64,000 nt of DNA, taken from Ricordea florida. Its lineage: Eukaryota > Cnidaria > Anthozoa > Corallimorpharia > Ricordeidae. Of the stretch, positions 249 through 59,796 are shown piece by piece. A program made the translations under genes and the position numbers. The DNA lies in assembly GCA_949710005.1 (NCBI GenBank), contig OX453282.1, forward strand, positions 20,363,225-20,427,224, written 5' to 3'. The notes under the pieces were generated by a model. The model was not told where the DNA came from, did no database searches, and worked only from the letters and a program-made list of their open reading frames with translations. Each line of letters opens with the position of its first letter. Position 1 is the first letter of the stretch.

Positions 249-396
249 GTGTTCGACGGAAATTCCGGAAGAAATGATGTAGTAAAACATTCTCTTTCCA
301 CACCAGTACAAGCACAGTTCATTCGCTTTCAACCAACTGCAAGTTCAGGGCGCAAGGCACTGAGAGTGGAAGTATATGGCATACAAAAACCTAGAG
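249..396 (+). other. Gene A exon: second half of an F5/8 type C (discoidin) domain
   Basis: The exon encodes VFDGN at its start, then a strand ending FIRFQP, and closes with LRVEVYGI, the usual C-terminal strand of discoidin domains. It runs from phase 0 to phase 1 and has 148 bases, exactly like the matching gene B exons at 33617-33764 and 45025-45172. The partner exon for the first half must lie left of the window. Discoidin domains bind carbohydrate, phospholipid or protein ligands; the ligand here is unknown. Confidence 0.85.
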
Positions 397-3300: not shown

Positions 3301-6300
3301 AAGTTATCGAAGGCGAAGAAGCGATATGTCGGGAAAAACAAAAATATTACTCCTCAATCGGATATACTATTCTTCCGATTTAGCCTTATTGGCCCTGTTC
3401 CCGCTAATGTCTTTTCACACGACCACGCAGGACCTGTGGTAGTAGCCCGAGTAATAAAATAGAACATAGAAATGAAATCGCAATTCAGTAAAGTGTATTG
3501 CGCGAAATTTGAAACCACTCTACACGCTTGATAATTTGCAAAATAAGATCCCTGACCCAACTTCGTACTCCACGAGCTCACCACAGGATGCCTTTGACTA
3601 GTAACTAAAGTTGGTCTTCCACTTGTGTTAGCTAGTGTGGGCGCTTTTAAAATTAAAACTTTTACCATAAATATTACTTTCGCCATAAACCAGGACCAAT
3701 GTAGTCACAAGTACATCATCTTTGTACAATCCGGGCAATTCAATATTAACAAATACTTACTCAGCAACCTTGGTACTTTGAGCAATCTGAGTGCCTCACC
3801 ATCTTGGGATATTTCATTGGGAAATCCTTGAGCAAGTTATTTTCGAGGAAATGGCCCGCGTCAGTTTTCGCTTTACAGCCGTTTTCGAGAGATGTGACAG
3901 TGGTAATCTCATTGGTACATACCAAAACAATTATTCTCTTTAATATCCGGTAAATCTTAGCTTTAGAAATATTCTGCCACTTCACCTGGATTTCAGAGAA
4001 GTGTTAAGTATCATGCGGATCGGAATCAATCAAGAATTGACATGTTCTTCGTCAAACCTACTTTAGAACCAAGTGGGCCTCCTACCAGCTTTACTGTGGC
4101 TGCACAGAGTTCTACAAGTGTCCGTGCATCCTGGCAGTTACCATCTGAGGACTCAAGAAACGGTATAATCACCGGATTCATTCTGTACTATAAGAATAAA
4201 GACTCAGCAGACCAAGGGACCACAGTAACCATTAATAGCAGCTCAACACTCCAAAGAGATGTTACGGGTTTAAGAAAATACACTGAATATGAATTCCAAG
4301 TGTTGGCCTTTACTTCTGTTGGCAATGGACCAAGGACTGCTGTTATCACTGAGAGAACACAGCAGGATGGTAACTATTTAAAATCCTATGTTTTCCTTGG
4401 AAAGATAAATTTCTGTATCACTGATGAGTGCTGATTTTGATTAGTCTGTAGTTTCTCTGTTGTGTAAGTCCAGTTACTAGGGAATAAGTTCAGCGAAGCC
4501 TTGACATTGTTTTCTTTATCTTTGCCTTGTTGTGGTTCCTTCGTCCTAAAGTACGTTTTCATTTTGCCCCATATGCAGCGCCGAACTTAAAGCCAACAGT
4601 GCAGGTGCTCAGGATATGGATGAACTGGTAAAATACTATTTTCAAAGGGGGGTTTTCCTACAACACGGTTTTGATATCTTTGGCCAAGTATCATAACTTC
4701 AGCAACGACTTTTTGATATGGGTTTAAAACGGAGAAATATTGAATACCAGTTTGTCAATAAATCGTTAGAAACTTAAATGGCCCCAGAAGTTCCAGAGCA
4801 TATCGTTTAATATGGCACTCCCTCAGGTTGAAAGGAATCCAAGTTCACCCAAGAGTTGTTCGGGAGATTTGCCGTGAGATCGACCCAATTGGTTGCAAAG
4901 AAAGAAGAGCGAAACGCCTGAAACGAAGACGGTATAGAGCCCTGGACCAAACTTTGTATCACATACCGACGGGTACGATAAACTAAAGCCTTATGGCCTC
5001 CCCATACATGGACGACGGATTCAGCAGCATAATAACTTGGCTAAAGGTTTCAAGCACAAATAACGACCCAGCTGTAGTTGCAGGGTTTTATCTTTAAAGC
5101 TGTAAAAACCGAAGGTGGCTGAGAACTGATAATAGTACAGAAAACACATGTGTCCGTCGTTCCTCAGATTTCTTTGCTACAAACTGATCACAGGTTGGCA
5201 GTTGACTGTTTTAATGACTACAACCTTCTTTTCTCGGATCGAAGGTAGCGGCACGTTTACGAGTTGTTGATTGCGGCGCTCTCGACACTCTCCCATATGA
5301 CACTAGACCTCACTGCACCGTTGATGTCAAGTTCGGTGCCACAGCTGGGACAAAATGAAACCGTACATTGGACCGAGGACGCACAACAAGTACAAAACAT
5401 GCTACAGTTGTTCACTTGCTGTACAACAAAAATGGTTTCTATTTAGAGGAAAATGCGAAACAAAGCGCGGGAAAAAAAATGTTGTCCAAGCCTCGCTGAA
5501 TTTGTTCCCCAGTCCTTTCCATCACTTTTTACTAGGTGCCGAGGGTTTCTTTTGTGTACTGAAAATATAAATTTGTGCACTGAGAAATAAACTTGTGCAC
5601 TAAAAATATATATTTGTGCACTGAAAGCATATATTTGTGTATTGCATATAGGGGCCTCCATACGTTTATGATTAAAGCACTGAAAAGGAAAAGGTTACAT
5701 ATGCAGTCTTGTATTATCTTAGTTTTTCGTTTACAATAATCATCATTATTAATATTAATATAATTCATAATTACAAATAAATAGTAATTATCAACCCTTT
5801 TTTTGAACCCATTTAATTCAGATATGTATTTTTTATACATTGAGACAATAAAGACCATTTATTATTATGACAGTTTAAAACTCCTGAATACCAAGTCCTA
5901 ATCGCAAATACTGGGCGTGTAAACGTAGCCAGTATTATCTCAAAATTTACGAATTTACATTTGGTAGGAATAAAATTGCGTAAAAGTAATAAAATAAACA
6001 TCTATCCTAATAATATCTGCTAAGTGCTAATAATGTGTTATCTCATTAGCGCCCCATGGGTGACCAAGTGGCTAACACATCACTTTGAATGTTTTAGCGA
6101 TGTGAAGGGTGTGGCTCAGGAAGGCTTTCTGCATTCTTCTGAGTACCTCTCGGTACTTATCTGAGCCCACTAACGTCTAGTCGTCTTCCTTCAAACTCCT
6201 TGAATAGCCATCTACAGCGTCAATGACGATGATAAACTGTCGAATCTTGAAAACTGGGTACTGTCTCTTGAGCTCCAGTCGCAAAGACGCGTACTTCTTT

Positions 6301-9300
6301 CTGCTTTCTGTTGTCCATCCAGGGACAGCCCATCTCTATCAGCATCATCGCCTTGTTTTCCCTGTCTAAAAACCTAACGTCAACTCTGCTGGCTCTTACT
6401 AGCAAATGCTTCTCGAAAACAAGCATATCCCAATACGCCGTCACGTTGTCGTCTTGGTACACCGGCTTGGGCTGGACTGGTGAATACCAAGGTGGAATCG
6501 CATCCGCCAGCTGATAGCCCCTAAGCATCTCAAAGAACAGAATTTTGGCCAAAATGCAGCCATATATTCTAAAACTTTGTCTTGCATTGATTATTGACTT
6601 GTTGTTAAAAGGTACTGGAGACAAAGATGAAACCTCCTCACCTGGTTCATCTAATATTGCTGTCGCTGTCGCTGTTCCACTTGTCTTACTGCTGTTGATC
6701 GCCATCATTGCTGTTGGAATTCTTTATGCAAGAAGGTAAATATGACTTCTCATGGAAAAAAGTACAATAACGGCTGCAGTAGGAACGGCAAAACACACGG
6801 CTAGTGAATGGATGACGTTGCATGCCGCTCCCACGGACGTAATTGACAGCTAAAAGGCTGCAGAAAAACTATCAACGGCAGAAGGTGAACGGATGATTAT
6901 TCTCCTCGTTATGGGCTCCTGTCCTCGTGAGGCTCTTAGACGCGCTAGTTGAGAGACACGTTTCGATCGGAGAAGGATTAAATTATGAAAGATTTCAGGA
7001 TGTCTGTGATAATATTGATCACGATCTATAACCATTTTTACCAAAGCTAAATAAATTTAGTTATAATCTGAGAAATAGTTAAAAATAACACGTTTAAGAC
7101 GAACAGAAAATGAGCAGCTCTTTAACAGCAATTGTACGTGGTGTTCCGAGCAGGTGTTCCGAGGTAAAGATCACATTTTATCATAGTTTTGTTATCTGAC
7201 TGTATACGTAAAGTTCTATTCAATTCAGCTATTGAGCTGTAATTTTAAAGCTTCCATAACCCGTCTCCAGTTTCTTTCTCTTTGTCTGGTCCGCAGTGTA
7301 TATTCACACTTTCTATCTATAGGAGACATCGAGAACCGAGGCGTGAAGACGACAGTGCATACAGGAACACTGTGTCAGTTGATAACTTGGGTCAAGATTC
7401 CCTTGACACCGATGCAAGTGCAGCCAATCCGGTTTATCAAAACACGAGCGACGTCCGGCTGGATGAAGGTACAGTGCCGACTGCATTTAACGTGTCCCTC
7501 AATACTACATGCTGGCATCGGGTATCGAGTTTCGAGGTTTGACTCGATACCCGATACTCGCAGGCACTGAGTATCAAGAATCGCGTACTCGCAGGCAGAA
7601 AGCGTCAAGTGACGAGCTGAGTTACTTGGATACTTTGACACTCACAGGCTTTGAATATAAAGTATCGCAGTAACACAAAATACACGCTGGCAGTTTGTAT
7701 TCTCTTAAGCATTAATACTCAATTCACCATATACTCGATGCTCGAAATTCTGAAGCATCAGGTATCGAGTATCGAGTTTACACTCAATACTCGCCAGCAC
7801 TGAGCGTAAAGCATTACATCAATGTTCAATACTTGACAATAGCATATTCACTCAATACTCAAAATTCCCCGGCATCGGGTGTCAAGTTTGTAATCGCTAA
7901 TCGATCATTGCCTTCATCGGGGTTCAGGTATCGAGTTTCCTTCAATTTTATTTGTTTTTAAAATACGTGTCACTTAATCAAACTAGGGGAAAACATTTAA
8001 CTTTTACAAACGTTTCCTAGCTGGTTTATTCTTTAAATATAAGAAAACTAGTATATGGAAATAATCGGCGTAAATGGAGTGAGGTTTGGTATTCTAATTA
8101 GGAATAATTACAATGTCAATTAATGTCAGTTTTGCTTACTTATTTTTCCAACTTGTTCCTCATTTTCCTTTCGTGTCCTGACCATTTTAAAGTGGTCACA
8201 ACATTATTTACAGGGCCACTTCCCTGTGGAACAGTCAACCTAAGAACACTCGGGATATGAGTTCTTTAGATTTCTTTGGAAAAAAATTATCAGCTGTGCT
8301 TTTCATACGTTTTTCTAAAGATAGCTGATGGTGGTCATATTACATTTTGTTCATTAAGCACACCTCATTACCGCCGCCTCATTAACTCAGTTAGTAGAGC
8401 GCCGACCAGTTGAGCGGGAGGTCATGAGTTCAAACCTTGGCCGTACCAACACTAAAAGTCTTAAAGTAACTGAGGAGAATGTGCTGGCTTTGTTAATGTC
8501 ACCTGCAAATGGTTAAACATTTTAGTCTACTCGGATAAGGACGAAAAACAGAAAACCCGTCCCACAGCACTGTTCTGGTGGGACGTTGAAGATCCCACAA
8601 CACTGTTCAAAACGAGTAGGGGACGTAGACCCCGGTGTTGTGGTCGACCTTTGTAAAGTTTGATTGTAATTGATTAATAAATAGAAGAATTGATGTGAAG
8701 CGCTTTTGAACATATCCATATGAAAAAGTGGGATATACAAATTCATTATCATTATCGTTGTAATGGTTTCTGAAAAACCATTAGTGGATGGAACCAATAA
8801 AGCTATTATTATTTTTATCATTATTTAGTTCTTACATCATGTAATTTGTTTTACTTCGGCATCATGCACATATAAAATTATGCCACTTAAAATACGAAAC
8901 TTACGTCTTCATATTAAGCGGCAGAAAAGAGCGGGAAAACCTTTTTTCCATCATTTTTACCTCATGGTATGTACTTCATACCATGAGGTATAGTGATTGA
9001 TGGATTTGTCACTCCATTCCCGTTAGACAATTAATTTATGCATTAAATCTGCATTAAATGTGAAATAAACAGGTTCTACCCTGGCTCCCCTACTAGGTTT
9101 GGTTTTGTCCACAAAGTCGTGCTATTGTTTTATGTTCACATATGTGGTGGGAGGGGGTGAGACAAAGCGGCAAAACATGTTTACAAAATGGCGTCAGTTT
9201 TGTCGAGCCCGACGGAAAGATTGTCAAGGCGGGTCAGTTTCTTTCCTTTTGCTCCATATTTGATCAAAATGCACCAACAGGAAATGTGTTCAAGAATAAG

Positions 9301-12300
9301 GAATGCTCGAGTGGAAAGAAATGGGTTTTAAAGTCTTAAACGTGACGATGTCTCCTATTTGGACGACGAGTAATCGATCAGTCGTAGCAAGAGTGCACAA
9401 AACGAACTATTCGAAATGAACGCTTTATTGTCTTGGGAAAGGACAGCACTTCATGGAATAATTACCACAGACCATGAGGTAGCTCGAAGGAGCCTTTGAT
9501 TGTTCTTATAATCGTTTTCCCGACATCTCATACTCCTAAAAAGCGAGAAAAAAATTCGGTGCCATATACACTTTAATTTCATTTACCTTTTTTTAGATGA
9601 AGACACAGATTATGGCGTATCCAGGGCTGTTCCTGTGGCTAATTTCGCTGACTACTACAAAAAGAAGACAAAGAACAGCGCTATACTACTGAGAGAAGAA
9701 TTTAAAGTAAGGCCACCTTTTGATTTAGACAGGAAACCAATTCTAACAAATATGTTACAAATATAATATGTTAATACGTTAAAGGTAATAATAATTTCAA
9801 GCATCTGAGCGGGCCGAATCTTAAATCCTCGAATTTGATTGGCTAATCACGCGTGAGTGACCGGTCCACATTTTAACGATACGGCCCTCGGGTCGGTTTT
9901 TGTTTCCGGCTGTAGCAATTTCATATCTCTTTTCTTGCTTTAAGGAAAAGAAAAAAGGGTCGTACTCAAGACCTCGGGCACAGTTTTTTTTTTCCATACG
10001 GACCTTCCGCCCGGTAAATAACATATATACATTCCAGGTAAAGAACAGAAAATGTAGGGAAAAAAGGTAAATTAAAAAAAAAATGAGAAAATGGTGGCTT
10101 GCATCTTATATCATGAAAAAAAGTGATCATTTCATGAGCCCAAATGCTGAGACAGAGATAGGGGCTTTCTTACATTTGGTTTTGTTATAGGTACATTACA
10201 AACTTAGCCTCACTGGATGTACAGTTGCAACTCTTTTACATAGAGTAAGGAACTTATGTCTTTGGTCTAATAACTGGTGAATTCTTATGACGCCTTAGTC
10301 GTGCCAGGATTTACAGATATATAGATAGTGATCCAAGTGAAAAGGAGAGACATAGTTTAACCCAAATTACAACTAAAACTTTATTTCTGTTACAGTTTAT
10401 CAATCTTATTGACATGTTGTATTTTCTGATATATCAGGCTGTTCCGGGAGGTTTGCAGTATTCGTGGAATGTTGGACAGAGACAAAAGCCCAAAAATCGC
10501 TACGCCAATATCGTTACATGTAAGTTTGTTATTTTTGTCATAACATACAGGAGCCGGATTCAATATTGTTTTTATTAACCAATGAAAATATTGTAGAGGC
10601 TAGGTTACAAGTTGTAATGGATAGGAGTCATGTGATTCGTTCGCACCTTTTTGATCCCTCGACCAATGCCCCTCGCGGTTGTTGTTTGTAAACTCGTGAA
10701 CTGGCCATCACAAATATTTCAGCTGGTATGGCCAAGCAGTGCTCGATTTCTCTTTCACGCGTCAGCGTCTTTTTGACCTTTAAACAAGATACACATGTTA
10801 CTGAGGAGGGAACGTCTCGGACCACTTCACAACCGAGATGGCCCCTACACTTACACACCATCCACGTTTTGATGCCGGATTAGCTGAGAATAACAGAGAT
10901 CAGGTGCAACCTGTTTTTGTGTTCTAAAACTAATTCAGTCTTGAAAAACTTAAAACAGTAATCGATAAGATTGTAATGAAAAAAAATATTGAAGTAAACG
11001 GATTTAACAGAGAAGCACTGAGTTAATAGTGCTCGTCTAATGCCAACAGATGACCATTCTCGTGTTGTCCTGGAGGAAATAGAAAATGAGCCAGACTCAG
11101 ACTACATCAATGCAAGCTACATCCCGGTAAGTAGTCTGTGAATACTTTCACTTTCAACGTAATATCTTCATTATTTCATTTACCATTCACTTTGACATTC
11201 AAATCCTAGCAGTATACAGGGTGTTTGTCCCATGAAGCTAGCTTATTTAATGGCCTTGCTCTCACGAGTATTCTATAGCTCACTGGTAGAGTCCGAACTA
11301 GTAATCGAAAAGTCGTAGGTATGACTCCTTTTAGGAAAACCGGGATTTCCTTTCCTGATTTTCCTGTTACAGTACTAAATAATACATCTTTCACGATGTA
11401 ATCCACTTTATCTTAATATGGAGAATTTGGCTTAAGATCGATCCCCTAACCGCGAAGCGATATACATATCTAACTTTTTCTCAACCGAATACTTGGAAAT
11501 GTATCAAAACTGCTAGAAGACGTTTTAAATTCATTAGTTCTTGGTACGAGAAGGTTAACTGGACAGACTAGCATGGTGTCCGATTTCCTCCTTAGACTTT
11601 TGATGAGAAGCCAAAGGGTTACATTGCAACTCAAGGTATTGTAACTTAATATTAAAATTCACCGTAAAAAATGAGTTTAACCTTGAGACACGGATACCAG
11701 CGACTACACATTAAATAATTTTATTATTTATTCAAAATATTTCACCGTTTCGGATTGGCCAAAATGCCCTGGCTAAAACCCGGAAAAAGAAATCCCATGC
11801 TATTATCCTACAATTGAGGTCAGTCGTAGTATAATAGCATGGATTTTTGGACACTTGACGTCACGGAACTTGCATATCTGAGAGACCAGAAAAATGGCGA
11901 AAGCAAGGTGCTCAACATTAAACAGGGAGATATCAGTAAGTTGCTAAGGACAGTTTTAACACGCAAAAATCAACTAAAGCGAGTATGCTAATTTTCAATA
12001 CCTAGCTGGAGGATACAAACATCTGAGATCCACAAACAGCTCAGGAATTGGAGTCGATCTTGAGGACATTTTACGCCGAAGTGAGAACAGAGAATGGAAA
12101 AATGCACGCGAAAAGCGCTGGAAATATTTTGCATGCATAATAAAACAATTATTGGATTCAGCTTCTGTGTGATATGAAGAATTATGCAGATCTCGTGGAA
12201 TGTAACACTCTCCTCGATCTGCATAATTCCAATAATTGTTAAATATTCCGTGTTCATTATTTACGTTTGACGACCATGCAATAAAAGCTCGTGTATCTCA

Positions 12301-15300
12301 AATCCACAAAACTTGACGTCTTTAAATGTTTGTTTTCCTTCGGTGACTTGTGTTTGAATTTCATCTTTTCAACCCGTATATACATATCTACATTAATAAG
12401 TTGTACTGTCTATTTATTTTTTTCATTTCATGCCATCGATACTTTCCTCCTCCAAGTCTCCAATTTTTTTGTTAATTAGACATTTGTGTTGGTTAGATTT
12501 TGAATTGGAATCTAAGTTCTTATCAAAATGACTCTTCGCCCCTTTCATAACCACATATTGAGGTAAATGAGCAAGCCTCATTTTAACCTATCATGTGACC
12601 TTTATCCTCTTATGAACAGTCATTGGGAAGTATATATTTATACAATGGACCTCAATTCCTCCAAATACTACAACGTAAAATATTTAACATGTTCCTAAGA
12701 ATAAGGAAATATTCCACTCTCTTGGTTTAGTACTTGAAATGCAATTCACTAATAAATATTGCTCTCTGTGTCAGGACCAACGACGGTCACAGTCAATGAT
12801 TTTTGGCGAATGATTTGGCAGGAGAAATGTTCCATAATCGTTATGCTAACCAACCTAGTGGAGATGGGAAAGGTAAGTAGCAAAGAAGTTACAGTAGTGC
12901 TATAAGTATCTCTTAACAAGTGAAAACAAAATTAGTTGCACACCTCTACGAGTAATTATAATGTCACATTCTAATAATATTTACTAGGAACCAACTCGAA
13001 TTCTATTACAAATCGTGCAATCTGATTGGCTAACGCAACTGATAGCGAGTAGCGCAAACGCCCGCGCTTAGAATAAAACAATGACTTTAAAATTTAAAAA
13101 CCCAAATATTTTTGCACATGGTTTCTACTTAATTATTAAGGTTACTGTAGACCTTCAAAGGCTGAATTTTGCGATTTTTTTTTTTCTATGCTCCTCACAT
13201 AGCTAAAACATCGATTTAAAATTTGGTGAAAAAAGTTGTTTGAAATCATTCAATGATCGCGAGATTTCGGGGAAAAACTATTTTGGAGAAGAGTTAATAA
13301 ATAACTAAAGGCGTTCTAATCCCATTAAACACATCTAGCGCCTACTTATTTTTCGCGGCAAATCTTATCGGGGACTAAAATTACAAACATTTGAATATTT
13401 TGTTTACATTGAAAGTTGTGCTGTGTCGCGTCGTTTTGGCCGTTGGTATCAGTGAATATTTTAATGTAGAATCCGTGAAAACTTACATTATGAATTCATC
13501 GAAAAGAGAAAAGAAGCCTCGGACGAGAAAAAGGAGAAAAGCGATTTGTTTGATGAAAGCAGGAGGAACCTCGCCGCCAGTGACAAAGATTCCTGGTTTG
13601 ACCAGCCTTCAAGCTATGTTTCAGGAGTCTCACACCCGTCAACTTCCAGAGAGGTTGGTGCCGGTAGTTTAAAGCTGATGGCTTCGAAAGCTGTTAGCAC
13701 TGGTTTAGCAGAATCTGACTCGACCAGTGGCGAGGAATCGAACGCAAGCACAGAATGGGAGGAATTGGAGTGTGACCACGTTTCGTTTTGGATCGCGCTC
13801 GGTTGACTGGATGTTTGGTTCTTTGGAGTGCCTTTTCCCTTTACTGTTTCTCGAGAGGCTTTTCTCGTTGATTTAACTTTACCAGGAGCCTGACTTTACC
13901 CATGTTTTCGCCGCAATCACTCGACGGTGTTCGACTGCGACTGCAAAACTTCCCGCAAATTTAATGAGCTATTTTTGTTGCGGGCGTTCGGGGGATCCGA
14001 AGCTCGTGTTTCATTGGTCGGCGGCATGATCCAGTTGACAGCCGCTTTGATGAAGTGTGATAAGCCTTTAAACTTTAGGAGTCTAAAACTCGGACTTTAT
14101 TTTTGCGTGGATTTCCTTGCTTCAAGCGAATTAATAGGGTATATAGATTTGACGGATTCTCATGAAATTTGGCAAAAATGTTCCTTGGTTATCAATGCAA
14201 AAAAGGGAGTGAGGCTTTTTTGATATTTCAAATACTTCTCCTTTTACGCGCTCTCATGTGACGAAGATCGGCAAATATTCAATTCGCCAACTTCAAAATA
14301 GATTTTCTCGGCAACCAGTCGGAATATCGCAAAAGCCTCACACCCTTTTGTTGCCTATCACCTACTGATTGACATTGTGCAGTTTGTTTGGTCGTACTTG
14401 CAAGCAGGAAGGCAGGTAATTCAGTTAAACAAATAGTGTTAGTTTTGGATTTGAAGGCTAGCGCGCGCTTACCATTAACTCAAATCTTAAAAGAAACTAT
14501 TTCTTTTGATTGCACATTTTTTTAGCTTTATGATGATATATACTTTTCTATGGTTATAATATAAGCGGCGCGCATACGAATGATTCTTCGGAAGACACCT
14601 CTGAAGGTGTACAGTAACCTTGAAAGATTTTAAATCGCGGAAAACCAAGGGCACTGATGGTTTCCCAGCTGAGTTCTTTCGCTTAAGAAACCCCTGAAGG
14701 TCTACAGTAACCAAAATAATTAAGCCATTCGTCCTTGTTTTCTATACGCTAATTATAAAATAATAGTCAACTCGTAGAAAACTGTCAACTCGAGGAAAAC
14801 TGTAATATGTTTTTTCTGTTTTCAGAACAAGTGCGAGAAGTACTGGCCCGAAAAAGCCAGGAAGTTCGGAAACATCGTCGTAACCAGGAATAAGTTGGAA
14901 GTTTTGGCTGATTACGAGATCCGTACCTTTATAATGAAAAAGGTAAAGAAAATAGTATGCTTTAGGTTTTGTATGAAGTTCGTGTATTTAGCTAAACAAA
15001 AAGGCAGGCGCCACTATTCGACTCTGAAGATTTCCATACAAAAGTAAAGTGCTTAAACTTTTGAAGTTTGATTCCCCTGTGGAGGATTTCCTGCCATGGA
15101 TATACTATGGTTTCTACCAAACTGATACTGCTTGACGTCACGTCATCGTTGATTTTTTGATCAATAGGCACTGCTTAACAAAGAAGACCTGACTAGCATA
15201 CTTAAGTACTACAGGGGGCGATAAAACCATTACTTATTTCTCAAATGCGTTCTTAAATTAAAGAGTATTCATAAGCCCATTATTAGTTATTTAGTATTTT

Positions 15301-18300
15301 TCCTTTCATAATAGACTGATATGCTGTGAAATTTGCACATAGTTGATCGAGGGACTGGTTATGAAACCCTGGAAATTTCAAAAGCAAGAACAGTGCAGTC
15401 TCAATTAGAAGTTGAATCGACCGTGACCCTGCACAATCTTTAGCTTTTGTTTCACAAGTTACGAATATATTAGTCGAAACTTTTGATTGGTTATCCCACC
15501 GAAAAAAGTGTGTTTTTGTGCATATGTAAACTATGATTAATAACAATAAACAAAGTTCTTTGTGCACACGTTTTAATGACACAAGAAATCGTTTCTGAAG
15601 GTATGTGTTGATTTGTAGGATGGAAAACAGCGTCAAGTTGTTCAGTTTCATTTTACTGCGTGGCCTGACAAAGGTGTACCACAACACGCGACCCCTTTGC
15701 TGGCATTCCAGAAGAAGATACGAGCTTGGAGACACCATACTGATGAACCGCTGGTCGTGCACTGCAGGTGACATTTGCGTAATCAAAATACTACCGGCGA
15801 AGTCCACTTCAAACGAGTTATAACCAAAATGGCTCGTCCCGATTGGCTCCATTCAGTATGGTTACAGAGAACGTGAATTAATTTCTTATTAATTTCACAG
15901 CTGCTTAAGTTGTGTACATATTACTGCGATGATCAATTAATGTCATTAAACAATTGATAAGTAATTAAGATACTGATACAATTATTTATCAGTAACAGAT
16001 GCAGAGAAAATTGCTCTGATGTAGCTTGAAAATGAGTTGTAAGATGTCACAAATAATAGTGACTCTTGGGTATCTTTTAATAACAGCTTTCTTATGAAAG
16101 CTGACTAAGAAACACCATTGACATAAACGCATCTTTCTATCTATCTACCTTCCAGCACATTGCGTGCACGATTGTTTGAAGAATTCTTAGATTTTTATCG
16201 GTTCTCAATTCTTACTGGCTTCCTAACTTTCTGGTTTGAGCTGGGGCGACCAAGACCTGTTTTGTAAGAATTGGAATCATTTCATTGTGGAAGGAAAACG
16301 CGAAGAATTAAAACCAGTTCATTATTCTGGTGCATAAAATGCGGACATAAGTCATTATGTGCTCTCCTAGGGAGCCTATAGTTATATTTTACGGCTCCCT
16401 AGGAGACCACATTTTTGTGAAGTAGATACTACGAATAAGTAAAGTTATTCTTGTTGATCTTGATGATGTTGATCTTGGTGATGATGATGATGTTGTTACT
16501 TATTATACAACAGGTCAATTCAGACATTCTTTACATCTATATTTTACTGAAATAGTGCTGGTGTTGGACGAACTGGAACCTTTATTGCCCTAGACACTAT
16601 GCTGGACATGGCCGAGAAAACGAAGAGCGTTTTCATAAACAAGTTTCTACGCGTTATGCGAGCCGCACGTCCAAACATGGTTCAAACTGATGTAAGAGGT
16701 TATTCTTATTCCTTCTCTTGTCCTTTTTTATTATTATAGTATCAATTTCTTACTAACGTTTTCTGTGTTATCGGGTGATTACAATAATTATAATAATTGT
16801 CATAGAAAAAACCAAAATCAATCACAGGTACCCAATGGTGAGCTCGTGGATAAAATGTTAACTTAAATGTTAGAAATATTAAGGGAATGTATAGTATTTT
16901 CCTTAGTGCACAAGTGTCTTGCAGGCGTTAAAGGCAACACGGTTTTGGTTATCTTTCTCGAGCACGAATCACTCTATTTTGATCCGGTGCCCTCGGTAAC
17001 AAACACCAAGGAGTCAAAATGGCTTCTGTTTCTTGAAACCCTCAGTGCCGTATGAACTCTCCCTCAATCACGTGATAAGTACCATGACTGTGATTGGCTA
17101 CCGACAGAACGAGACTTCCAGACGATCGTTAATTACATGAGAAATCCAAGGTTACTATTGGCTCCCATGTTTCTTTTGTTACATGTTTTCCGTGACATTT
17201 CTGACCCACCATCCCAATACCTCGTGAATCCACGAGGTCCACGAGCTAAACATTAAAAAAAACCATGTAAAAATTAAAAAGGCAGATATCAATTCTCACT
17301 CTTCCTAGATAATATACGTGTCTGGAAAATATTATCAGTTAGATTATAATTTAGACTATAATAACCTGGACAGTAGCCATAGAAAACTTAGCTACGTAAC
17401 ACCGAAACGAAGCTAACAAATATCAACGACCGATCGCCCGAGAGCTCCAAATATATAACAACATTAACATCAGTATGGAAATGAAAGAAAAAAAATTAGA
17501 TTTACCAAATTTATTGCCATTTTGCCAATACCTTTTATTTGATAATTTTACCAAATTTTATATTCGCGAGTTAGCAGGGTTCCAATCCTGTTATCACATG
17601 TGCTTTTTTTTTCAGGCTCAATCGCTTTTGCTTACATTATGTTAATACTGGTAGGGTCGAGAACTCAAATAAATGTTACTGCAATGAGGTATAATCAACA
17701 CATTGTGTACACTCTGTTTTAGGACCAGTATGTGTTCCTCCATCAAGCTGTTATGGAGGCTCTGACGTGTGGAAATACAGAAATAACCGCCTCTGACTTA
17801 AGGATTAAGATGAATAAGCTGGCAGCGGTTGACAGGAACAGTCACCTGACTGGATACCAACAGGAATTTGAGGTGCAGTAACTCCAATAAATCATAAACA
17901 CAAAATGGTGTTTACTCAGCACAATATCCTTGAGGTGATAATTTACCCAATTATCCTCATTCATTTGCTTTTATTCATTCATTTATTTATTTTATTTTCC
18001 ATTTACATAATAGTTACTTTTAATACACCTAAGTTAGTGGCAAGGAGACCTCAGGAAACCACAAGGCTTATAGGAGAGGCCACCTCGAAGGATAATATAA
18101 GAGTATAATTTGGTGATGTGTGAGTGCAGCATAACAGATTCAGGATTGCTTAAATAAAAATTCTAACATTTTTTTCTTGAAGGTAAGAAAACTTGCCGAA
18201 CAGGTAGTTGAAGTAGGGAGAGAATTCTAAATCATAGGACCTTGACAGAGAATTGTAAATTGCTTAATGTTTGTACTACAGAAATGATGGCGGTAACATC

Positions 18301-26338: not shown

Positions 26339-26665
26339 AGTATGGTGAACTTAAGGGTAGCATAAGCTGAACTGTTTTTCATAGCTGAGGGAAATAATGA
26401 GGACTTGGAGTTATGTTGGTTACTTCAGGATCATTGTCTGCTGCACAAAGAAATAACTGTTAAAAACCTTGCGACATTCCAATAAGTATATAATAAGAAT
26501 GCAATAGTGTAGTAATAAGTGTATAGTAACTTAGAGATTTTGACGGAGTGAGGAAAAAAAATTGAAAATAGTACGGAAATGTGTGGAAAATACCATAAAG
26601 TGCGATTGGGTTTGAATTTTGCTCAAAAGTGCGATTCCGCAACTCCGCACTCTGCCCACAGTTAA

Positions 26666-28207: not shown

Positions 28208-28414
28208 ATGTGTGTTTCATCCTACTGCTACAACCTGGTGAAGTGTTTTGGTAAAAAGAAGCACTTTAATAAATGCCTATACAAATCTACACGTACGTGT
28301 ACAGAAAAGTTCATAGAATCCCCCTTTTTCAAACCTGAGAACATAATTGCACTTAATGATGGCGTTCAACTTATTGGCGAAGGCCTTATTACAGAAGATG
28401 AATGCCTAAACGCA
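28208..28414 (+). pseudogene. L1-like reverse transcriptase scrap, cut by a transposon
   Basis: Encodes IALNDGVQLIGEGLITEDEC then LNAL, like the segment before the RT core of L1/Tx1-type LINEs, where xxLTxEEC is followed by a KSPGxDG motif. The reading stops at the TTAA where the inverted-repeat element is inserted. Immediately after that element the same frame would resume with KDFKSR. The next part survives only next to copy 1, at 14620-14682. Confidence 0.5.
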
Positions 28415-28418
28415 TTAA

Positions 28419-29531: not shown

Positions 29532-29566
29532 TTAAAAGATTTTAAATCGCGGAATGAGTGTACATT

Positions 29567-30122: not shown

Positions 30123-30189
30123 ATGGCGGAGCCGCGTAAGGTGTATTTCCGGGTGGCTTTCTTCGCTCTACTTGTTCGTTTGATAGCAG
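30123..30189 (+). other. Gene B signal-peptide exon
   Basis: Encodes [20 protein letters not shown] then IAG: a basic n-region, a hydrophobic core and a small-residue cleavage region. The ATG is chosen because the identical exon recurs at 63921-63987 with the same upstream context, and its phase 1 end joins the first F5/8C exon exactly. Confidence 0.85.
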
Positions 30190-42100: not shown

Positions 42101-45100
42101 TGAGGTGTTAGGAGGCCAAACAAATTGAAACTAAGAGATTGGAATTGATCAAATTCAGTCGTTACAGGTCTAGGCTGCCTGATAGCTAGCTGCACATATT
42201 ACCCGGGAAAAATACTGAACTTTTCCCGTCGGTCTGTAGATTACTGAGAAAAATTTGGATCGTTACAGAATGTTCGTATTAATAGTTTTTAATACAGCTG
42301 AATGATGCCGCCGCGAATTAATACGGGTAGGACAATGTCCAAAAAAATTACCAACAAGGAATGTTTAAGATCTAACACAGTGAATTGCTAAAGAAACCTT
42401 CTTAAAGTGTCATTCCTTCCTTAAAATAACCACGCCCTAAAAGAAGCTGCATAAGGATTTTTTAATGGGTGCGCTTAATATGCGGTATATTTAACAATTA
42501 GATTATGAGCTAGAAATAAATAATAATAATATTTAATATTTCTATAGCGCTTTTTACAATAAAAGATCAAAACCGCTTTACATGTATTAAAATAAAATAA
42601 ATAATAAATCAAATTACAATAGTTAATATAAAAGTGAAAAATATAATAATTATAATATGTGCAAGTAAAATATAGCACTTATAAATCCTAAAATTTGATT
42701 ACAGTAAACTTATTTGCAAACGTTTTCTTAAATAAAAATGTTTTAAGACTTTTCTTAAACGTCTCAACTGATGTGGCATCTCGTAGACTTGGCGGTAGGG
42801 CGTTACATAATTGTGGTACAGCCGCCTGAAATGAAAGCCATCCAAGAGTGATCAGCATCTTGCCTTTAGGAGGATAAAGAAGGCTGCTACAGTTGGAGCG
42901 TAAATTATAATAAGCTTTGGATTTTTCCGACACTAAAGTGGACAGATAGGCGGGAGCCCGCGGATGACTTTAAACGCCAGCAGCAAAATCTGAATGCGCG
43001 CATGAACTGGAACTGGCAATGTAAATCATACAGAGCAGGAGTAATATGGGAATATTTCCCAATGTCCATGCGGGATTTTGAACGCGTTGCAATTTCGAAA
43101 TTTGTTCCTTTGAGACGCCATAAAGCAGACTATTAGAATAATCTAGCCTGCTTGTAATAAATGCATGTACTAGGGTCAGAAGATTCTCCCTAGAAAGATA
43201 GTTCTTTATACGTCGTATATTATGAAGATGGAAAAAAGCTGATTTGCACAAACCAGTAACATGTTTAGACATACTGAGTCAAGCCAACAAGCAAGGTTAT
43301 TGACTTGCGTGCTTGCAGTAATTGTGTCGTGCCCTACTGAATTAGAACATGGCTGTGATTTACATAACTGCTGGCAAGTTCCAATCAAAATAAATTCAGT
43401 CATACTATCATTTATCATTAATTTCTCTCTTATCATCCATTCCCTTATTTTCTGTCTACAACACTCATGGCATTAATAGCAGCAGTCTGTGACGCAGCGC
43501 TATGCGGCTTAAAACTCAGGTATAATTGAGTATCGTCTGCATAGCAGTGTGCTTCTGGTAATTGATCACTAATAACTTTGAAGAGTTTGGACGAGTAAAT
43601 AATGAACAGCAGTGGGCCCAAACAGGAGCCCTGTGGGACTCCATGATCTAAAACAAACCTCTCTGAAAACGTCCCATCGACAGCTACACGTTGTGTTCTG
43701 TTCTGCAGGTATGATCTAAACCACTCCAAAGCTAAGCCTCTAATACTTCCTCATGTAGACGGCTGATTAAGATGCCATGATTTACAGTATCGAATGCGGC
43801 ACTCAGATCTAACATGACCAATAGCGTAACCTCTTGGAAATTCATCTTCATCAAAATGTCGTTTGTGACCTTGAGCAACGCTGTTTCAGTTCTATGAAAT
43901 CTGCGATACGAAGACTGTAATTCAGGATAAACTGCATTGGTCGTCATGTGCGCATGCATTTGGTTGAACACCGCTTTCTCAGTTAGTTTGGAGATGTATT
44001 GTAAATTACTAACAGGCCTATAGTTTGGACTCACTAGATCAAGACCCAATTTCTTCAATAATGGATTGACAAGAGCACTCTTCCATACCTCCGCAAACTC
44101 ATCGGATGACAAAGACAAATTAATAATCTTGGTAATAACAGGCAACAATATATCAACGTGGTCAAGCACGACAGATGTAGGCAATGGGTCAAGACTGCAT
44201 GATTTTTTGCTAGAATCATGTATGAACTGTCAAACATCGTCCTCACGAAGTGCCGTAAAGGCATTAAGCTGAGGAACAATAAGTTGCACATCTGCGTCAC
44301 TGTCATATGGATCGATGGATAAAGTGAAAGCTAAATTATCCAGCTTAGAGTGAATGGTCGTTGCTTTTCTACGAGTTATTGACCCATTTGGTTAGCGAAT
44401 TTAAGCTTGTCGACGCATGGAGGAAAGACAGACCTTTGGTTACCTTGATTGAGAAGAGTTTTTGCTACTGCGAATAATTTACGCTGATCATTGTTCTTCT
44501 CCTCAATAAAGTCTTGGTAGAACTTTATCCGTGCTTCGTTCATTGTCTGATTTACATAGTTCTTTTTTGCCTTATAAACCAACATGTCATCTCTGCGGCC
44601 GGTGCGTCTCCACTTTCGCTCGGCTTTTCTTTTTCAGCGCCTCGCCAACTTGATCTCCTCATTGAACCATGGCACCAGTGGTCTAACGTGGATGACCTTA
44701 TTGCGCAAGGGAGCATGTTTGTCAAGCACATCAGCCAAAGATTTATTATAACAATGCACTAAACCATCGTGTATCTGAGCAGTTCTTGAAAAGATCGGAA
44801 CGTAATATGTCATCCTTAAACTTGCCTTTGTCAATTCCTTTAATCCGCCTATAAAATACTTGTTTGACACTGGGTGCTAGTCTTCCCAAAATTTCTATCG
44901 TTCTATGGGTTGATAGTCTATATATATATATACAAAGCCTTTAGGGCCTCAGTTTCCATTCTTAATTGTTCATTTCATTGTGATTCTAACAAATCAAATA
45001 AGTTTTTTTCTTTCTCTTTTGTAGGTGTTCGACGGAAATTCCGGAAGAAATGATGTAGTAAAACATTCTCTTTCCACACCAGTACAAGCACAGTTCATTC

Positions 45101-56900: not shown

Positions 56901-59796
56901 AGTGATCATTGGAAGCAGATAATGACGGCACCCTTTGAACACTGAGGATGGAATTGGATCAAGTGTACAGGACTTTGAAGACAGGTGATTCACAAAACCA
57001 GATACGACCTCCTCAGTGACCAGTTTAAATTCACTTAGCAGCTGACCAGCTAGACAGCTTTCAGATTCAGCATTGCATGAAGTAACTTGATCGTCATTCA
57101 GAGTTCCATCAACTTTGTCAAGATCATTGCGGATTTTAACAATTTTGTCACTAAAATATTCAACGAATGATTCGGACAGAGAACAGTTATTAGGCCCAGA
57201 TGGATAATGCTGGACTGGATTGGAGTGCAGAAGCTTCTCTATTGTCTTAAAAAGAAGTCCAGAGTTCCCTGAGTTTTCCTGGATCACTGATGAATAAAAT
57301 GTGTGCTTCGCGGGGGCAATCATGTCATTAACAACACTGTTCTGAAACACATACCGTTCTCTATCTGCAGGTAATCTTGTACGTCGCCAGTTAAGTTCGA
57401 GCTTCCTCCTTATGTTCTTTTGAACACTAATGTCAGTTGAATACCAAAGCGCACAAGGACGAAGAACTACCTCACGGGTCCTTTCGGGGGCATAAACATC
57501 AAGGGTGGACTTCAAGACCCGATGATAGGAATCAACTAACAAATCCAAATCACGCTGTGATTCGTCAAACAAAGACGAATTCATGATAGTGTCATTGAAT
57601 TCAGCATGATCAATCGAACGCAGCTTCCGGTGGCGAATAGTTCTTGTTGGAAATTGTGGTTTGTGCAATAATAAATGCATAAAAATAGCGTAATGATCAG
57701 AAATCAAAGGGTCATGAACCATAACATTGTCTATAAGTTTACACTGATTTCTAGTAATGATATGACCACTTGTGTGAGTCGGCGTAGTCACCCATTGTTT
57801 CAGATCGAAAGATGGTATTAGGTCACAAAGATGCAATGCGTTGACATCACGCGAAGAATCCATATGTAGATTAAAATCACCGACAATTAAAAGCTCGCCT
57901 GATGCTATGGCCAATTCCTCAAGCAGGAGAGAAAATTCATGATAAAATGTTGACAAAGGCACAGATGACGGTGGGCGGTAAATAATTATCATCCTGATCA
58001 TCTTTGAGCTCTTGAAACGAACATCCAAGAATTCGAACGACTGGAAGGAAGTGTTCCACTCACTATTTTTGCATTTAATATCCATACTTTCTTTGAAAAG
58101 CAAGCCGACACCACCACCTCTCGATTCCCGTGGAATGTGGATAAAATCATAGCCAGTGGGACATAAATCACCAATCTCAACACAATCAATATTTCCAGGT
58201 CTGAGCCACGTCTCCGTCAAAGCAAGAAGATCAATATCCTTTTCAACAACAAAGTCTTTCAGTACGCTAGATTTATTCCTTATTTGACGTGGAATTGAGC
58301 AAACAAAAGTTGATCGCACGAGAAGTATCCTGGGTGTAAGCAACTTGTGAGATCTGCACCTTCACGAGATTGTCGCGATTAAGCAAAGATGCAAATTTCG
58401 AAAAACGATCATTTCGATTTGAAACAACCGTCCTTATACTCCTCTGCCTCGTTCGTGACCTCGCCCATACACCTGCTCTACATCCTCTTGTCCGAAGCAA
58501 ACTGAAATCCTTTAAAACCGAAACCAGATGAAAAGGCAAACGAGCCGGCGAAAAACGCCGCACTGATAACAACTCACTTCTTGAATATGTAATAAGTTGT
58601 GGCGACCGAAATGAATGACGGTAATTATTTTCCTCGGCTATTTACGAGTTATTAGCCATTTACAAAAATATAACATTTCATTAAATTATTACTATTATTA
58701 TTGATTTTGGAAATTTATACTAAAAATCTACATTTCTATACACTTACTGCTTGCCTTCAAGTGTATGACTGACTCTGCTCCAACTCGTATTTCTCATCGC
58801 AGTTTTTTAAACTTGGTAAAATAAGCAGTTCCATGTCTCGAAGCTCTCAACTTTTGCAAATCCCTTTATTTATATATATATATCTGGACAAAGAACATTT
58901 GATTACTGTGTGGTTAGCTTATGGAACGGTATAGAAAACTCTTTTGACCTCTCCGACCATGCTCTTAAATTTAAACGTAAAAAATAAGGACTAGCTTATT
59001 TACCGCTTTCCTTTGAAGTCGGTCTTCAAATATTTTTTTTTGGTCTCTGCTCTTAGCAAATTTACATTTCATTTTCATTCATTATTGTTTTATTCATATT
59101 TTTAGAAACGCCACTTAAGTTAGCTATTTTTTATCATTGTCACCAAAAGACCTCTTTAGGGAGTATTAATAAAGTTTGTATTGTATGGTATTTTACTTAG
59201 ATATATAAGATATGTATCTGTTATTGACCAAGCGTGAGGTCAAGATGGCCTCAGAACTAGCCATATAACAAATGTAAGTATACTTTGTCTATTATAAAGT
59301 AAATATTTTTAGCACTCTGATTTAGTGTCCATGAAGTGTCTTTGGCGAAACGATTTTGATTTTGATCTGTTTTGTTTGTCCTTTAGGTAATAGTGTCCTT
59401 CTTGGTGTGGTAATTGGTCTGTCTTCTCTGCTTCTTGTTGTGTTTATTGTGATCGTTTGGATGATATTCCGACTGAGAAAAACCCCATCAAGAAACACCA
59501 CAACCACCTCTGAAAGACACCTTGACAACAGTAGGAAGGCTCGCGATGCACAGCAACCAGAACAAGATTCATATATGGAACTCAGTCCAAGGTCTGGTCA
59601 TGCGCAACACTCAGCGAGTTCTGCTGAATACCAAACATTACAGAAAGAAAATAAGAACCCAGGTCACTACAACCTGGGATTTAATGTTAATAGGGATAAA
59701 GAAAGCAGGGAGGTTTACTATAACGTGGGATCGAATGTTAATAAGGGGGAAGAAAAAGGGGAAATTTACGAGGAGATAGGAAATGCATCGGCTTAA
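30123..59796 (+). CDS. Gene B: F5/8C-fucolectin-FN3-Ig receptor with tyrosine-motif tail, no phosphatase
   Basis: Single-pass cell-surface receptor, 1606 residues. Exons: 30123-30189, 31676-31986, 33617-33764, 34973-35242, 37953-38126, 39160-39402, 40093-40278, 41694-42001, 45025-45172, 45637-45936, 46247-46549, 47527-47829, 48652-48948, 49527-49829, 50201-50306, 50545-50854, 53347-53389, 53557-53823, 54784-55107, 59387-59796. The total of 4821 bases is an exact multiple of three and every phase agrees. Domains: signal peptide 1-22, F5/8C 23-175, FTP 176-323 and 324-466, F5/8C 467-618, FN3 619-1120, RPTP-like membrane-proximal domain 1121-1273, Ig 1274-1362 and 1363-1470, membrane helix about 1474-1498, tail 1499-1606. 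One donor is GC (55108). AATAAA follows at 59828 and 59848. The ligand is unknown; the modules suggest glycan or protein recognition. Confidence 0.88.
31277..31545. repeat. Three-copy tandem repeat, period about 105
   Basis: Units start at 31277, 31382 and 31488 with GATGAAAAAGTTAGAACCAC or a one-base variant. They lie 130 bases before the first F5/8C exon. Open frame on the minus strand is a by-product of the repeat. Confidence 0.85.
31676..33764 (+). other. Gene B F5/8C domain 1 (two exons)
   Basis: Exons 31676-31986 and 33617-33764. The domain opens with [20 protein letters not shown], continues through [17 protein letters not shown] and [15 protein letters not shown], and closes with CMRAELYGV, the standard discoidin order with the two terminal Cys available for a disulfide. 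The intron 31987-33616 contains no gene I recognise. Confidence 0.9.
33765..34972. other. Gene B intron, simple repeat only
   Basis: A (TAA)n tract at 34216-34242 precedes TACATTTATTTCTAC, which resembles a LINE 3' end. The rest is featureless. Confidence 0.4.
35243..35470. repeat. GTTTT-type and (CACT)n simple repeats
   Basis: A TTTTGTTTTG tract (35255-35315) lies directly after the FTP-1 donor, followed by a perfect (CACT) run at 35417-35464. The open frames here are repeat artefacts. From 35470 to 36280 I see nothing recognisable. Confidence 0.9.
36790..37080 (+). pseudogene. Helitron-like protein relic
   Basis: [20 protein letters not shown] then LSAAESRW matches the Helitron N-terminal (helitron-like-N) region, which typically reads MIRQLGxPTxFxxxSAAExRW. 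After [13 protein letters not shown] the frame shifts at about 36960 and continues as [18 protein letters not shown]. Dead copy in the FTP-1 intron. No helicase part is visible. From 37080 to 37950 I see no feature. Confidence 0.6.
38741..38995 (+). mobile_element. tRNA-derived SINE with LINE-like tail
   Basis: Tyr/Val-tRNA-like head: GGTCAGAGCGCTCACC (A box) and GGGTTCGATTCCCGGC (B box), then TGCTCCGAGAGGTTTTTCCC and a tail containing TGTCCCCAATTAGT. The same tail string ends the LINE at 63350, so the SINE probably borrows that LINE's 3' end for mobilisation. Between 38130 and 38740 I see no gene. Confidence 0.75.
39625..39930. mobile_element. Inverted-repeat element, family shared with 61150-61405
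   Basis: GGTGAATATTCACCGATAAT occurs twice in inverted form at the left end. The body contains TGATTATTTCAAAAAAAG and GGCAGCCATTTTGTTCG, which recur at 61222 and 61298. Both copies end at GTATAATCACCTGAGTATTT. Noncoding. Confidence 0.75.
40525..41230 (+). mobile_element. Inverted-repeat-bounded element with Crypton-like coding scrap
   Basis: TAGTATATACTAAAACAGT at 40527 and its reverse complement near 41209 bound the segment. Inside, two spliceable exons (40665-40755 and 40993-41120, TAA) encode [30 protein letters not shown], then [20 protein letters not shown] and LNKIF. This resembles the N-terminal SAM-like (DNA-binding) part of Crypton/DUF3504 tyrosine recombinases. The catalytic part is missing. 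A second hairpin element follows at 41212-41336 (GGATATTTACC and GGTAAATATCC arms). Confidence 0.5.
41694..45172 (+). other. Gene B F5/8C domain 2 (two exons around a LINE-bearing intron)
   Basis: Exon 41694-42001 ([20 protein letters not shown] onward, with DYLQINLG and [14 protein letters not shown]) joins exon 45025-45172 ([10 protein letters not shown] to LRVEVYGI). The second exon is nearly identical to gene A 249-396; the 3-kb intron holds a LINE whose edge is duplicated at the window start. Confidence 0.9.
42500..44880 (-). pseudogene. 5'-truncated LINE (CR1/L2-like) with frameshifts
   Basis: Reading leftward from 44870: linker region, then FRPVSN-like [47 protein letters not shown] and [13 protein letters not shown] (RT catalytic box), then [20 protein letters not shown] and [11 protein letters not shown]. 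The reading is broken into at least six frames (44870, 44585, 44184, 43729, 43272 and 42933 are upper ends). The endonuclease is missing. The 3' end near 42540 has the TATAGCGC tail shared with the LINE at 55265. Confidence 0.85.
44777..46030. repeat. Segmental duplication shared with 1-1250
   Basis: Exon 45025-45172, its introns, FN3-1 (45637-45936) and flanks match 1-1250 at a constant offset of 44776 for the first several hundred bases, with scattered substitutions and small indels. Similarity weakens but continues through FN3-2. This is a direct duplication of about 44.8 kb spacing. Confidence 0.95.
46733..46818. mobile_element. Palindromic element, possible hammerhead-bearing Penelope scrap
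   Basis: AAAGGGAGGTGCTGACGTTT at the left and its reverse complement at the right form an 86-base near-palindrome. On the minus strand the left arm reads CCGATGAAGGGCTAACGCTC then GAAACGTC, close to the hammerhead core CUGAUGA-stem II-GAAA. The intron continues to 47526 without other features. Confidence 0.5.
47955..48405. mobile_element. Possible inverted-repeat element
   Basis: CCCCGTTTATATGAAGAA at the left is loosely matched inverted by CCGCATAAACGGGAC at the right. Between them are internal repeats of GTTTATATGAAAAATG type and no coding signal. Confidence 0.4.
48949..49526. other. Gene B intron, nothing recognised
   Basis: AT-rich intron with inexact short palindromes. The gaps 49830-50200 and 50307-50544 are likewise empty, apart from an AT-rich TATA run at 50474-50505. 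Confidence 0.5.
51194..51822. mobile_element. TTAA-flanked inverted-repeat element, third relative
   Basis: TTAA (51190-51193) precedes GGTTACTGATAACC, and GTTATTAGTAACC precedes TTAA (51823-51826). The outer GGTTACT matches the elements at 13140 and 28419; the interior differs. A 198-base open stretch inside (51530-51727) is not recognised. Confidence 0.75.
52250..52945 (-). pseudogene. Penelope-like retroelement remnant with GIY-YIG endonuclease
   Basis: Reading leftward: [16 protein letters not shown] (52790-52743), the Cys pair and YIGETG core of Penelope-type GIY-YIG nucleases, then [20 protein letters not shown] (about 52685-52625), the conserved His and IDW region. A stop at 52735 and a frameshift break it. 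Inverted repeats of about 78 bases (52343-52420 and 52868-52945) flank the region. Downstream on the same strand lies a hammerhead-like motif (52316-52268). No RT part is present. Confidence 0.7.
52268..52316 (-). ncRNA. Hammerhead ribozyme-like motif
   Basis: The minus strand reads GTGATGACTTCCGCTCAGG then TTGTCGAAACGTCAGTC. This gives UGAUGA and GAAAC core halves around a short stem, ending in a GUC cleavage triplet, as described for Penelope-like terminal repeats. The first core base is G rather than C, so activity is doubtful. Confidence 0.45.
52963..53113 (+). pseudogene. LINE ORF2 C-terminal scrap
   Basis: Open + frame: [20 protein letters not shown], then [19 protein letters not shown] and IVDVLCSP ending in TAG. 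The GRPxxxWRR then RxxWRxxVxxLC pattern is the usual C-terminus of several LINE families. No upstream RT remains. Confidence 0.65.
53824..53900. repeat. (CTAT)n / (CTAC)n microsatellite at a splice donor
   Basis: The tetranucleotide run begins within the donor GTATATCTATCTACC of the Ig-1 exon and continues for about 75 bases. Confidence 0.95.
53903..54395. mobile_element. Inverted-repeat element, intact relative of 20726-21893
   Basis: Starts CAGAGTGTTTCTGTCGAGG with a palindromic left part (ATAGTTGCCCC and GGGGCAACTAT). It continues through CCAGTTGAAAAACAGTCAAA to GTCACGTGATCAAATTAAAC. No ORF. It shows where the 20726 copy was split. The intron to 54783 has nothing else. Confidence 0.8.
55265..58620 (-). 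mobile_element. Nearly intact CR1/L2-like LINE
   Basis: A 964-codon frame (58343-55449) holds an apurinic-type endonuclease ([24 protein letters not shown]) and a reverse transcriptase ([59 protein letters not shown]) plus C-terminal thumb. The start appears shifted: residues upstream continue in another frame (58572-58273, ending INFCLLNS), overlapping [14 protein letters not shown], so one frameshift near 58290 probably separates the true N-terminus. The 3' end has TATAGCGCC and an (AATA)n tail at 55265-55285. No ORF1 is seen. It lies antisense in the intron before the gene B membrane exon. Confidence 0.9.
58885..59190 (+). pseudogene. LINE C-terminal and 3'-tail scrap
   Basis: [20 protein letters not shown] then [11 protein letters not shown] and stop matches the end of several LINE proteins (VWNSLP...SFKRKL type). 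AATAAAGTTTGTATTGTATGG follows at about 59168. A short (TA)n tract precedes it at 58872. Confidence 0.5.
59387..59796 (+). other. Gene B membrane helix and cytoplasmic tail
   Basis: One exon encodes [20 protein letters not shown] then IVIVWMIF (membrane span), a basic RLRK stop-transfer, and a 108-residue tail. Tyrosine sites: Y1533 (YMEL), Y1552 (YQTL), Y1565 (YNLG), Y1581/Y1582 (YYNV) and Y1598 (YEEI). YEEI is the textbook Src-family SH2 target and YYN fits the pYxN Grb2 motif. YxxL/I/V sites resemble ITAM/ITIM halves, but their spacing and the -2 residues do not meet strict consensus. The last 45 residues form an imperfect repeat ([24 protein letters not shown]). Confidence 0.88.

Follow-up and report, generated by a model that had tools for sequence, protein, structure and literature searches.

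Vertebrate paired receptors such as Siglec-11/16, CEACAM1/3, CD300A/C and KIR are described as having very similar ectodomains on different cytoplasmic ends, and ectodomain gene conversion is stated for Siglec-11/16 (PMC5701461, PMC5112662, PMC12447643, PMC12310515). Among invertebrates, the recognition receptors Alr of Hydractinia and those linked to FuHC in Botryllus have ITIM/ITAM-type tails; the accessible portion of the source describes no receptor kind there that shares its ectodomain with a phosphatase, unlike the genes reported here, and it names CD45-like receptor phosphatases in Botryllus ampullae only among expressed signalling proteins (PMC12065747). The stretch of Ricordea florida DNA that we analysed (the window, 64 kb, C11:20363225-20427224) holds two neighbouring members, genes A and B, of a tandem receptor array at about 20.1-21.0 Mb of contig C11. 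As in the vertebrate pairs, the genes of this array share an ectodomain on different ends, with an apparent exchange of ectodomains like that stated for Siglec-11/16. However, where vertebrate pairs set an ITIM-type tail against an ITAM-type or adaptor-linked one and use Ig or C-type lectin ectodomains, one kind of array receptor has a phosphatase of its own, and the ectodomain, in the two genes traced in full, consists of F5/8C, F-type lectin and FN3 domains. The possible likeness to Alr and the FuHC-linked receptors concerns the tails. Gene A also resembles the tandem receptor phosphatases (PTPRS/LAR, PTPRA, CD45), since its D1/D2 pair aligns end to end with the tandem domains of PTPRS and PTPRA in the PDB, but it differs from them in its lectin and F5/8C ectodomain, in an altered D2 and in having array relatives with a docking tail. 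Our searches of the open-licence PMC literature, outside which most subscription papers lie, listed no paper that we recognised as describing an array in which a common ectodomain is joined to a receptor phosphatase in some members and to a docking tail in others. The array thus looks like an animal paired-receptor system built in a new way. If confirmed, it would bring a catalytic arm to the paired-receptor principle in an early-branching animal, offer a candidate recognition locus for corals, and raise the direct question whether the phosphatase of one gene acts on its neighbour's tail.

The array was mapped by searching one assembly with gaps (537.8 Mb) for its signal-peptide and end exons. 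The signal exon, searched as a 24-amino acid peptide whose last two residues lie past the donor, has 15 matches in the genome, two of them at 19.2-19.4 Mb with a stop and 13 spread over 0.9 Mb of the array. Together with the end exons these define at least 13 units, five with a PTP end and eight with a docking tail, and in 12 of the 13 intervals exactly one end precedes the next start on the same strand; the remaining interval (after 21010653, minus strand) holds a PTP end and a broken tail place at 20915837 for which no start exon was found. On the plus strand, four tail-ended units start at C11:20110344, 20136903, 20182532 and 20245953, and are followed by gene A (start 20337505, or L048:4281; PTP end), gene B (20393347; tail), the next gene after B (20427145, its signal-peptide exon at window 63921-63987 and its tail at C11:20448983), a tail-ended unit at 20457696, a PTP gene that we call A' (20571282), a tail-ended unit at 20625837 and a PTP-ended unit at 20714372, while two PTP-ended units start on the minus strand at 21010653 and 20910332. 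The family F5/8C exon is present in 12 of the 13 units, and the one that lacks it (20625837) adjoins an N gap. With the F5/8C exon of A, 67 matches were found among the 150 of 286 candidates scored; 15 of these are close (82-98%), one of them on contig C33 and the other 14 at C11:20.10-21.00 Mb. A further two, at 74%, are partial. The helix exon of A has five matches (six candidates scored), the second Ig exon of B has 16, of which 13 are close (70-100%) and near tails, and the tail exon of B has 16 matched pieces at 14 places. Eleven of these places are intact and three are broken (20.108, 20.916 and 21.016 Mb); those outside the 13 units are the broken ones at the edges of the array (20.108 and 21.016) and intact ones beyond it at 19.22, 19.38 and 21.51 Mb.

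Genes A and B run in the same direction with 3.8 kb between them. The start exon and the surrounding 0.65-0.8 kb are 83-87% alike among A, B and the next gene, the three compared, which would be compatible with common control but, given the youth of the array, is weak evidence for it. From window 64001 onward the assembly has 7.5 kb of N, which set in 13 bases after the donor that closes the start exon of the next gene.

The exon chains of A and B are predicted models, in which open frames were joined by splice score and phase and some exon edges are uncertain. Gene A begins 25.7 kb upstream of the window, with its signal exon and first F5/8C domain there in L048 and its other upstream exons in L048, L001 and L002; the model is in phase from the first F-type lectin domain, also upstream, through the stop at window 26338. 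The order is signal peptide, F5/8C, two F-type lectin domains, F5/8C, three FN3 domains, membrane helix, PTP D1 and altered D2. Within the window, all on the plus strand, the C-terminal exon of the second F5/8C domain (249-396) is supported by Pfam and genome copies, and FN3-1 (860-1159), FN3-2 (1550-1852) and FN3-3 (4067-4369) by Pfam. They are followed by the transmembrane exon (6612-6735), which has its five genome places and a hydrophobicity judged by eye, and by a juxtamembrane exon (7251-7468, with an uncertain 5′ boundary) in which a motif scan found two YxN sites, YRNT and YQNT. D1 spans eight model exons (9597-17877; Pfam and PDB alignment), with WPD in 15619-15767, a ten-residue segment across the 15767/16556 junction and an intact catalytic motif of 13 residues, and a candidate small D1 exon of 12 residues near 11620 stands outside the model used for the Pfam and PDB searches. 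D2, which includes a stretch of 13 residues, and the C terminus SEYSNFKG occupy 19283-26338 (PDB alignment), with the stop at 26336-26338; this D2 is altered, reading WAD and carrying a changed ten-residue motif. In the C terminus, we take YSNF to resemble the YANF site of PTPRA. Pfam recognised Y_phosphatase (E 1e-134, two stretches), fn3 (three stretches), F5_F8_type_C and F5_F8_type_C_2, and the alignment with PTPRS covers query positions 28-600. Gene A therefore has the helix followed by two PTP domains that defines a receptor-type tandem phosphatase, and its phosphatase function is predicted. The D1 catalytic residues in the model (WPD and HCX5R) are kept, exon by exon, in A' and in the gene at 20.79 Mb, and dN/dS between the D1 domains of A and the latter is 0.20 (257 codons); for the D2 of A it is 0.48 and 0.35 against two genes in L013-L020 and 0.14 against A'.

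Gene B (30123-59796, plus strand) has 18 exons in phase, the last open frame running to 59793 and then TAA. It has a start and a lectin and F5/8C block like those of A, followed by five FN3 domains, a membrane-proximal domain of receptor-phosphatase type, two Ig domains, a helix and a tail with six tyrosines. The signal-peptide exon (30123-30189), identified by genome match, encodes 22 residues plus the first base of the next codon and ends at a GTGAGT donor. The first F5/8C domain (31676-33764), F-type lectin domains 1 (34973-38126) and 2 (39160-40278) and the second F5/8C domain (41694-45172, its C-terminal exon at 45025-45172) have two exons each, and are supported by the splice model and Pfam, as are FN3-1 to FN3-5 (45637-45936, 46247-46549, 47527-47829, 48652-48948 and 49527-49829). 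The membrane-proximal domain (50201-50876, two exons) has a furin-like RKRR site and matches PTP_tm at E 0.004, below the Pfam cut-off. Ig domain 1 (53557-53823) rests on the splice model and Pfam and Ig domain 2 (54784-55068) on the splice model and genome matches, while the last exon (59387-59796), an open frame with genome matches, encodes 135 amino acids from the helix to the stop, the six tyrosines lying past the helix. Pfam recognised F5_F8_type_C, F5_F8_type_C_2, fn3 (five stretches) and Ig (Ig_3, 3e-15). An initial sequence-only reading had proposed that A ends in PTP D1/D2 and B in Ig domains, a helix and a six-tyrosine tail, and both layouts hold: they are spliced in frame from the DNA and recognised by Pfam, with the PDB alignment in addition for A, and the tail exon of B, given its 14 places in the genome, is not a chance open frame. 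A 105-base unit stands in three tandem copies just before the first F5/8C exon of B (31267-31582). The intron between Ig domain 2 and the helix exon holds, on the minus strand, a 970-amino acid LINE-type open frame with reverse transcriptase and endonuclease (55449-58361), and reverse-transcriptase-like stretches at 42.7-44.9 kb lie within DNA common to the corresponding places of A and of a further tail gene, D, described below.

The two F-type lectin domains that Pfam and the PDB identify in the ectodomains of both A and B were absent from the layouts first proposed. In a sequence search of the PDB, the lectin block of A, to which that of B is homologous, matches the F-type lectins FBP32 and eel lectin. 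The canonical fucose motif of F-type lectins is HX24RXDX4(R/K) (PMC5712786). The four domains checked resemble F-type lectins in that all carry the cation motif, but they differ in that none has this fucose motif, and fucose binding by them is therefore not supported.

The closest relative of the ectodomain of A is not found in B. When we compared the 1.2 kb around the F5/8C and FN3-1 exons, the identity of A was 99.8% to D, a tail gene at C11 20.271 Mb, 92 kb upstream of A, 96.2% to B, 91% to the PTP gene at 20.885 Mb and 86.1% to A', and over the same 1.2 kb the sequence closest to B was that of the tail gene at 20.159 Mb (99.0%). With introns included, A and D are 98.7%, 99.8% and 98.9% identical in blocks of 5.3, 3.3 and 9.5 kb (about 18 kb), with unmatched stretches between them; the match stops at window 3279, beyond which D switches to tail-type FN3 exons. 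Over the eight exons from FTP1 to FN3-2, A shares 636 of 646 residues with D (98.5%) and 542 of 646 with B (84%), sums that exclude the first F5/8C domain, for which the copy of D was not among the sequences compared. The F5/8C and FN3 exons of A and B had been called near-identical, which is exact for the two F5/8C C-terminal exons (49 of 49 residues) but not for the eight exons together. In contrast, A and A' are 68-93% identical up to about window 1500, 94-100% identical between that point and 8000, and 99.1% identical over 14685-27000, and their phosphatase halves agree at about 97-99%.

In an ectodomain tree of 13 rows, which includes three of the five PTP genes, A joins D (100/99), and forcing A, A' and the 20.885 Mb gene into a single PTP clade costs 104 log units (p-AU 1e-47). 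The PTP rows at 20.733 and 20.998 Mb (two of 15) were left out since the stretch beyond their F5/8C exon does not align. Because PTP ends are homologous to one another, and so are tail ends, while the ectodomain tree rejects a PTP clade, ectodomains and ends must have recombined, and the comparisons show ectodomain DNA that was, to judge from its identity, recently shared or exchanged between the two kinds of end. The exchange could have been unequal crossing-over or conversion, in either direction. The notion of paired receptors thus stands as regards a common ectodomain, two ends, separate linked genes and ectodomain exchange between the kinds (array map, AU test and mosaic), but A and B do not form a simple pair: they are two of the array's 13 or more units, and the near-identical ectodomain on a different end belongs, among the rows compared, to A and D.

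Separate haplotype copies may remain in the assembly, since the 19.5 kb contig C33 (9530-10740 compared) agrees at 99.8% with the C11:20.123 Mb tail gene along 1.2 kb; N gaps occur near A' and directly after the window, and A' and D may partly be haplotypes. At C11:20.59-20.64 Mb, A' and the gene next to it might seem to repeat the A-B pair independently, but we did not count them as such, since the 97-99% identity of A and A' and the N gaps are compatible with a haplotype copy. Past the break from A, an intron of D (L047, about 5800-9000) contains several open frames, possibly of an inserted element; some of these frames may encode general transcription or translation factors.

The 11 tails open to a normal stop differ in length by whole codons only. 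Their pooled dN/dS is 0.57 for the cytoplasmic part (codon bootstrap 95% 0.38-0.85) and 0.51 for the helix (0.30-0.94), the intervals being rough because the pairs compared are related. For ectodomain exons the pooled ratio is 0.53 over 15 rows of the F5/8C exon and 0.79 over 14 rows of FN3-1, among which one is partial and another contains a stop. Judged by the ratios of the tails and those of D1 and D2, both kinds of end are shown to be under constraint. That the tail exon might not be used is disfavoured, since 11 of its 14 places are open and pooled dN/dS is below 1. Four tyrosine columns are kept in 11 of 11 intact tails, two in ten and one in six, but as a group they do not exceed the rest of the tail in conservation (p 0.26 by permutation, 11 intact tails), and a special conservation of the tyrosines is thus not supported.

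A preferred Src SH2 site is YEEI, while YxN is a Grb2 site and YxxL an SHP- (SHP2) or Syk-type SH2 site. Matches of ITIM, ITAM, YEEI and YxN type are found in the tails, in combinations that differ from tail to tail. The ITIM pattern is matched, at STYQT(L/V), by nine of the 11 that are intact, the exceptions being B and one other, and the ITAM pattern (YQTL-x8-YYNL or a variant) by six. The tail of B matches neither pattern as used, nor any Pfam family above the cut-off, and the sites matched in it are YMEL, YQTL, YYNV and YEEI. Since some tails have both patterns and B has neither, we dropped ITIM or ITAM as a decisive mark of the sign of signalling; on its motifs, the tail is best called a putative multi-site docking tail whose sign the matches do not fix. 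PTPRA and CD45 are able to activate Src-family kinases, and by analogy with phosphatases of this kind gene A might promote rather than oppose signalling. The phosphatase partner may either strip phosphate from the tail or turn on the kinase, so that an opposed function of the A and B kinds, which we infer as the first reading did, is one of two ways to understand the pair.

The membrane-proximal exon bears on the origin of the docking-tail kind. It has seven close places including B, each near a tail end (one of them broken). Three more matches are distant (38-41%); PTP exons follow two of them, about 9-10 kb downstream, at C11:19.98 and C8:29.23 Mb. The genome search gave no match to it in gene A, and some tail genes are also without it; no solved relative of the domain was found by sequence in the PDB at E up to 10. 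Since this exon lies near PTP exons elsewhere and PTP_tm matches it weakly, the sequences suggest a receptor phosphatase as the ancestor of the docking-tail kind, the catalytic half having been lost.

We consider that these observations are best explained, with a probability of roughly 0.55, by an array with two ends and exchanged ectodomains in which the phosphatases would tune the phosphorylation of tail receptors at one ligand. Outside the cell, both kinds would recognise one and the same ligand, which is probably a surface of glycan or phospholipid; a Src-type tyrosine kinase would phosphorylate the tail receptors, and the phosphorylated tails would recruit SH2 proteins, Src-type at YEEI, Grb2 at YxN and SHP2- or Syk-type at YxxL. 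Phosphatase receptors gathered at the same ligand would then set the level of tail phosphorylation through D1, and ectodomain exchange would hold both kinds on one moving ligand, as in vertebrate paired receptors. More tentatively, and with appreciable doubt, the array could be a coral paired-receptor system for self/non-self or symbiont recognition, in which a transmembrane phosphatase is the inhibitory or tuning partner and the other receptor its docking-tail substrate, with tails derived from receptor phosphatases (several keep the membrane-proximal domain) and ongoing ectodomain exchange. It is possible, if on balance improbable, that tandem duplication and neutral gene conversion alone produced two subfamilies with unrelated jobs, their ectodomains homogenised by adjacency. 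Conversion-like mosaics require no selection and homogenisation may be a by-product of tandem arrays, some copies are broken, and constraint is weakest in FN3-1 (pooled dN/dS 0.79, with 0.53 for the F5/8C exon); however, most tails are open, pooled dN/dS is below 1 in tails, D1 and D2, and the order of one start to one end suggests functional genes of both kinds.

That both kinds dampen signalling, as parallel inhibitors of which one recruits an SHP2-type phosphatase through an ITIM and the other carries its own, is rather unlikely: it would account for the frequent ITIM pattern, but the match is missing in B and one other tail, six of the 11 tails have ITAM spacing, and with sites of YEEI and YxN type the docking of kinases and Grb2 would be favoured. 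Also unlikely, though slightly less so, is an artefact of assembly or haplotypes, in which A is a false join between the tail-gene ectodomain of one haplotype and the phosphatase half of another copy. A is near-allelic to D on one side and to A' on the other, and both N gaps and a haplotig-like contig are present; however, A' (86%) and the 20.885 Mb gene (91%) also join this ectodomain to a PTP end, so that the two-end architecture is independent of A, and the artefact, if real, would remove only the recency of the exchange between A and D. The idea that A and B form a single transcription unit with two alternative ends gains something from their closeness and common direction but is hardly credible, because each unit has a signal-peptide exon and the DNA around the start is similar in the three compared. 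B starts from a separate signal exon (30123) and has a complete ectodomain. In the four tail units that precede A (starts 20110344 to 20245953), no PTP match lies between start and tail among the 150 of 170 candidates scored, nor is there a helix exon of the A type.

Some further observations concern the surroundings of the array. A repeat of about 1.1-1.5 kb occurs, 92-95% alike, inside A (window 13135-14642) and just before the start of B (28414-29554). Further clusters of receptor-phosphatase exons are found at C11:19.49-20.0 Mb and C8:29.2-29.7 Mb, and those on C11 lie near F5/8C exons that are only about 49% like the array family and are perhaps an older set. The GFP family, as befits a coral or another anthozoan, has 61 matched pieces in the genome, some with stops, including dozens of exon matches on C11:8.9-19.8 Mb.
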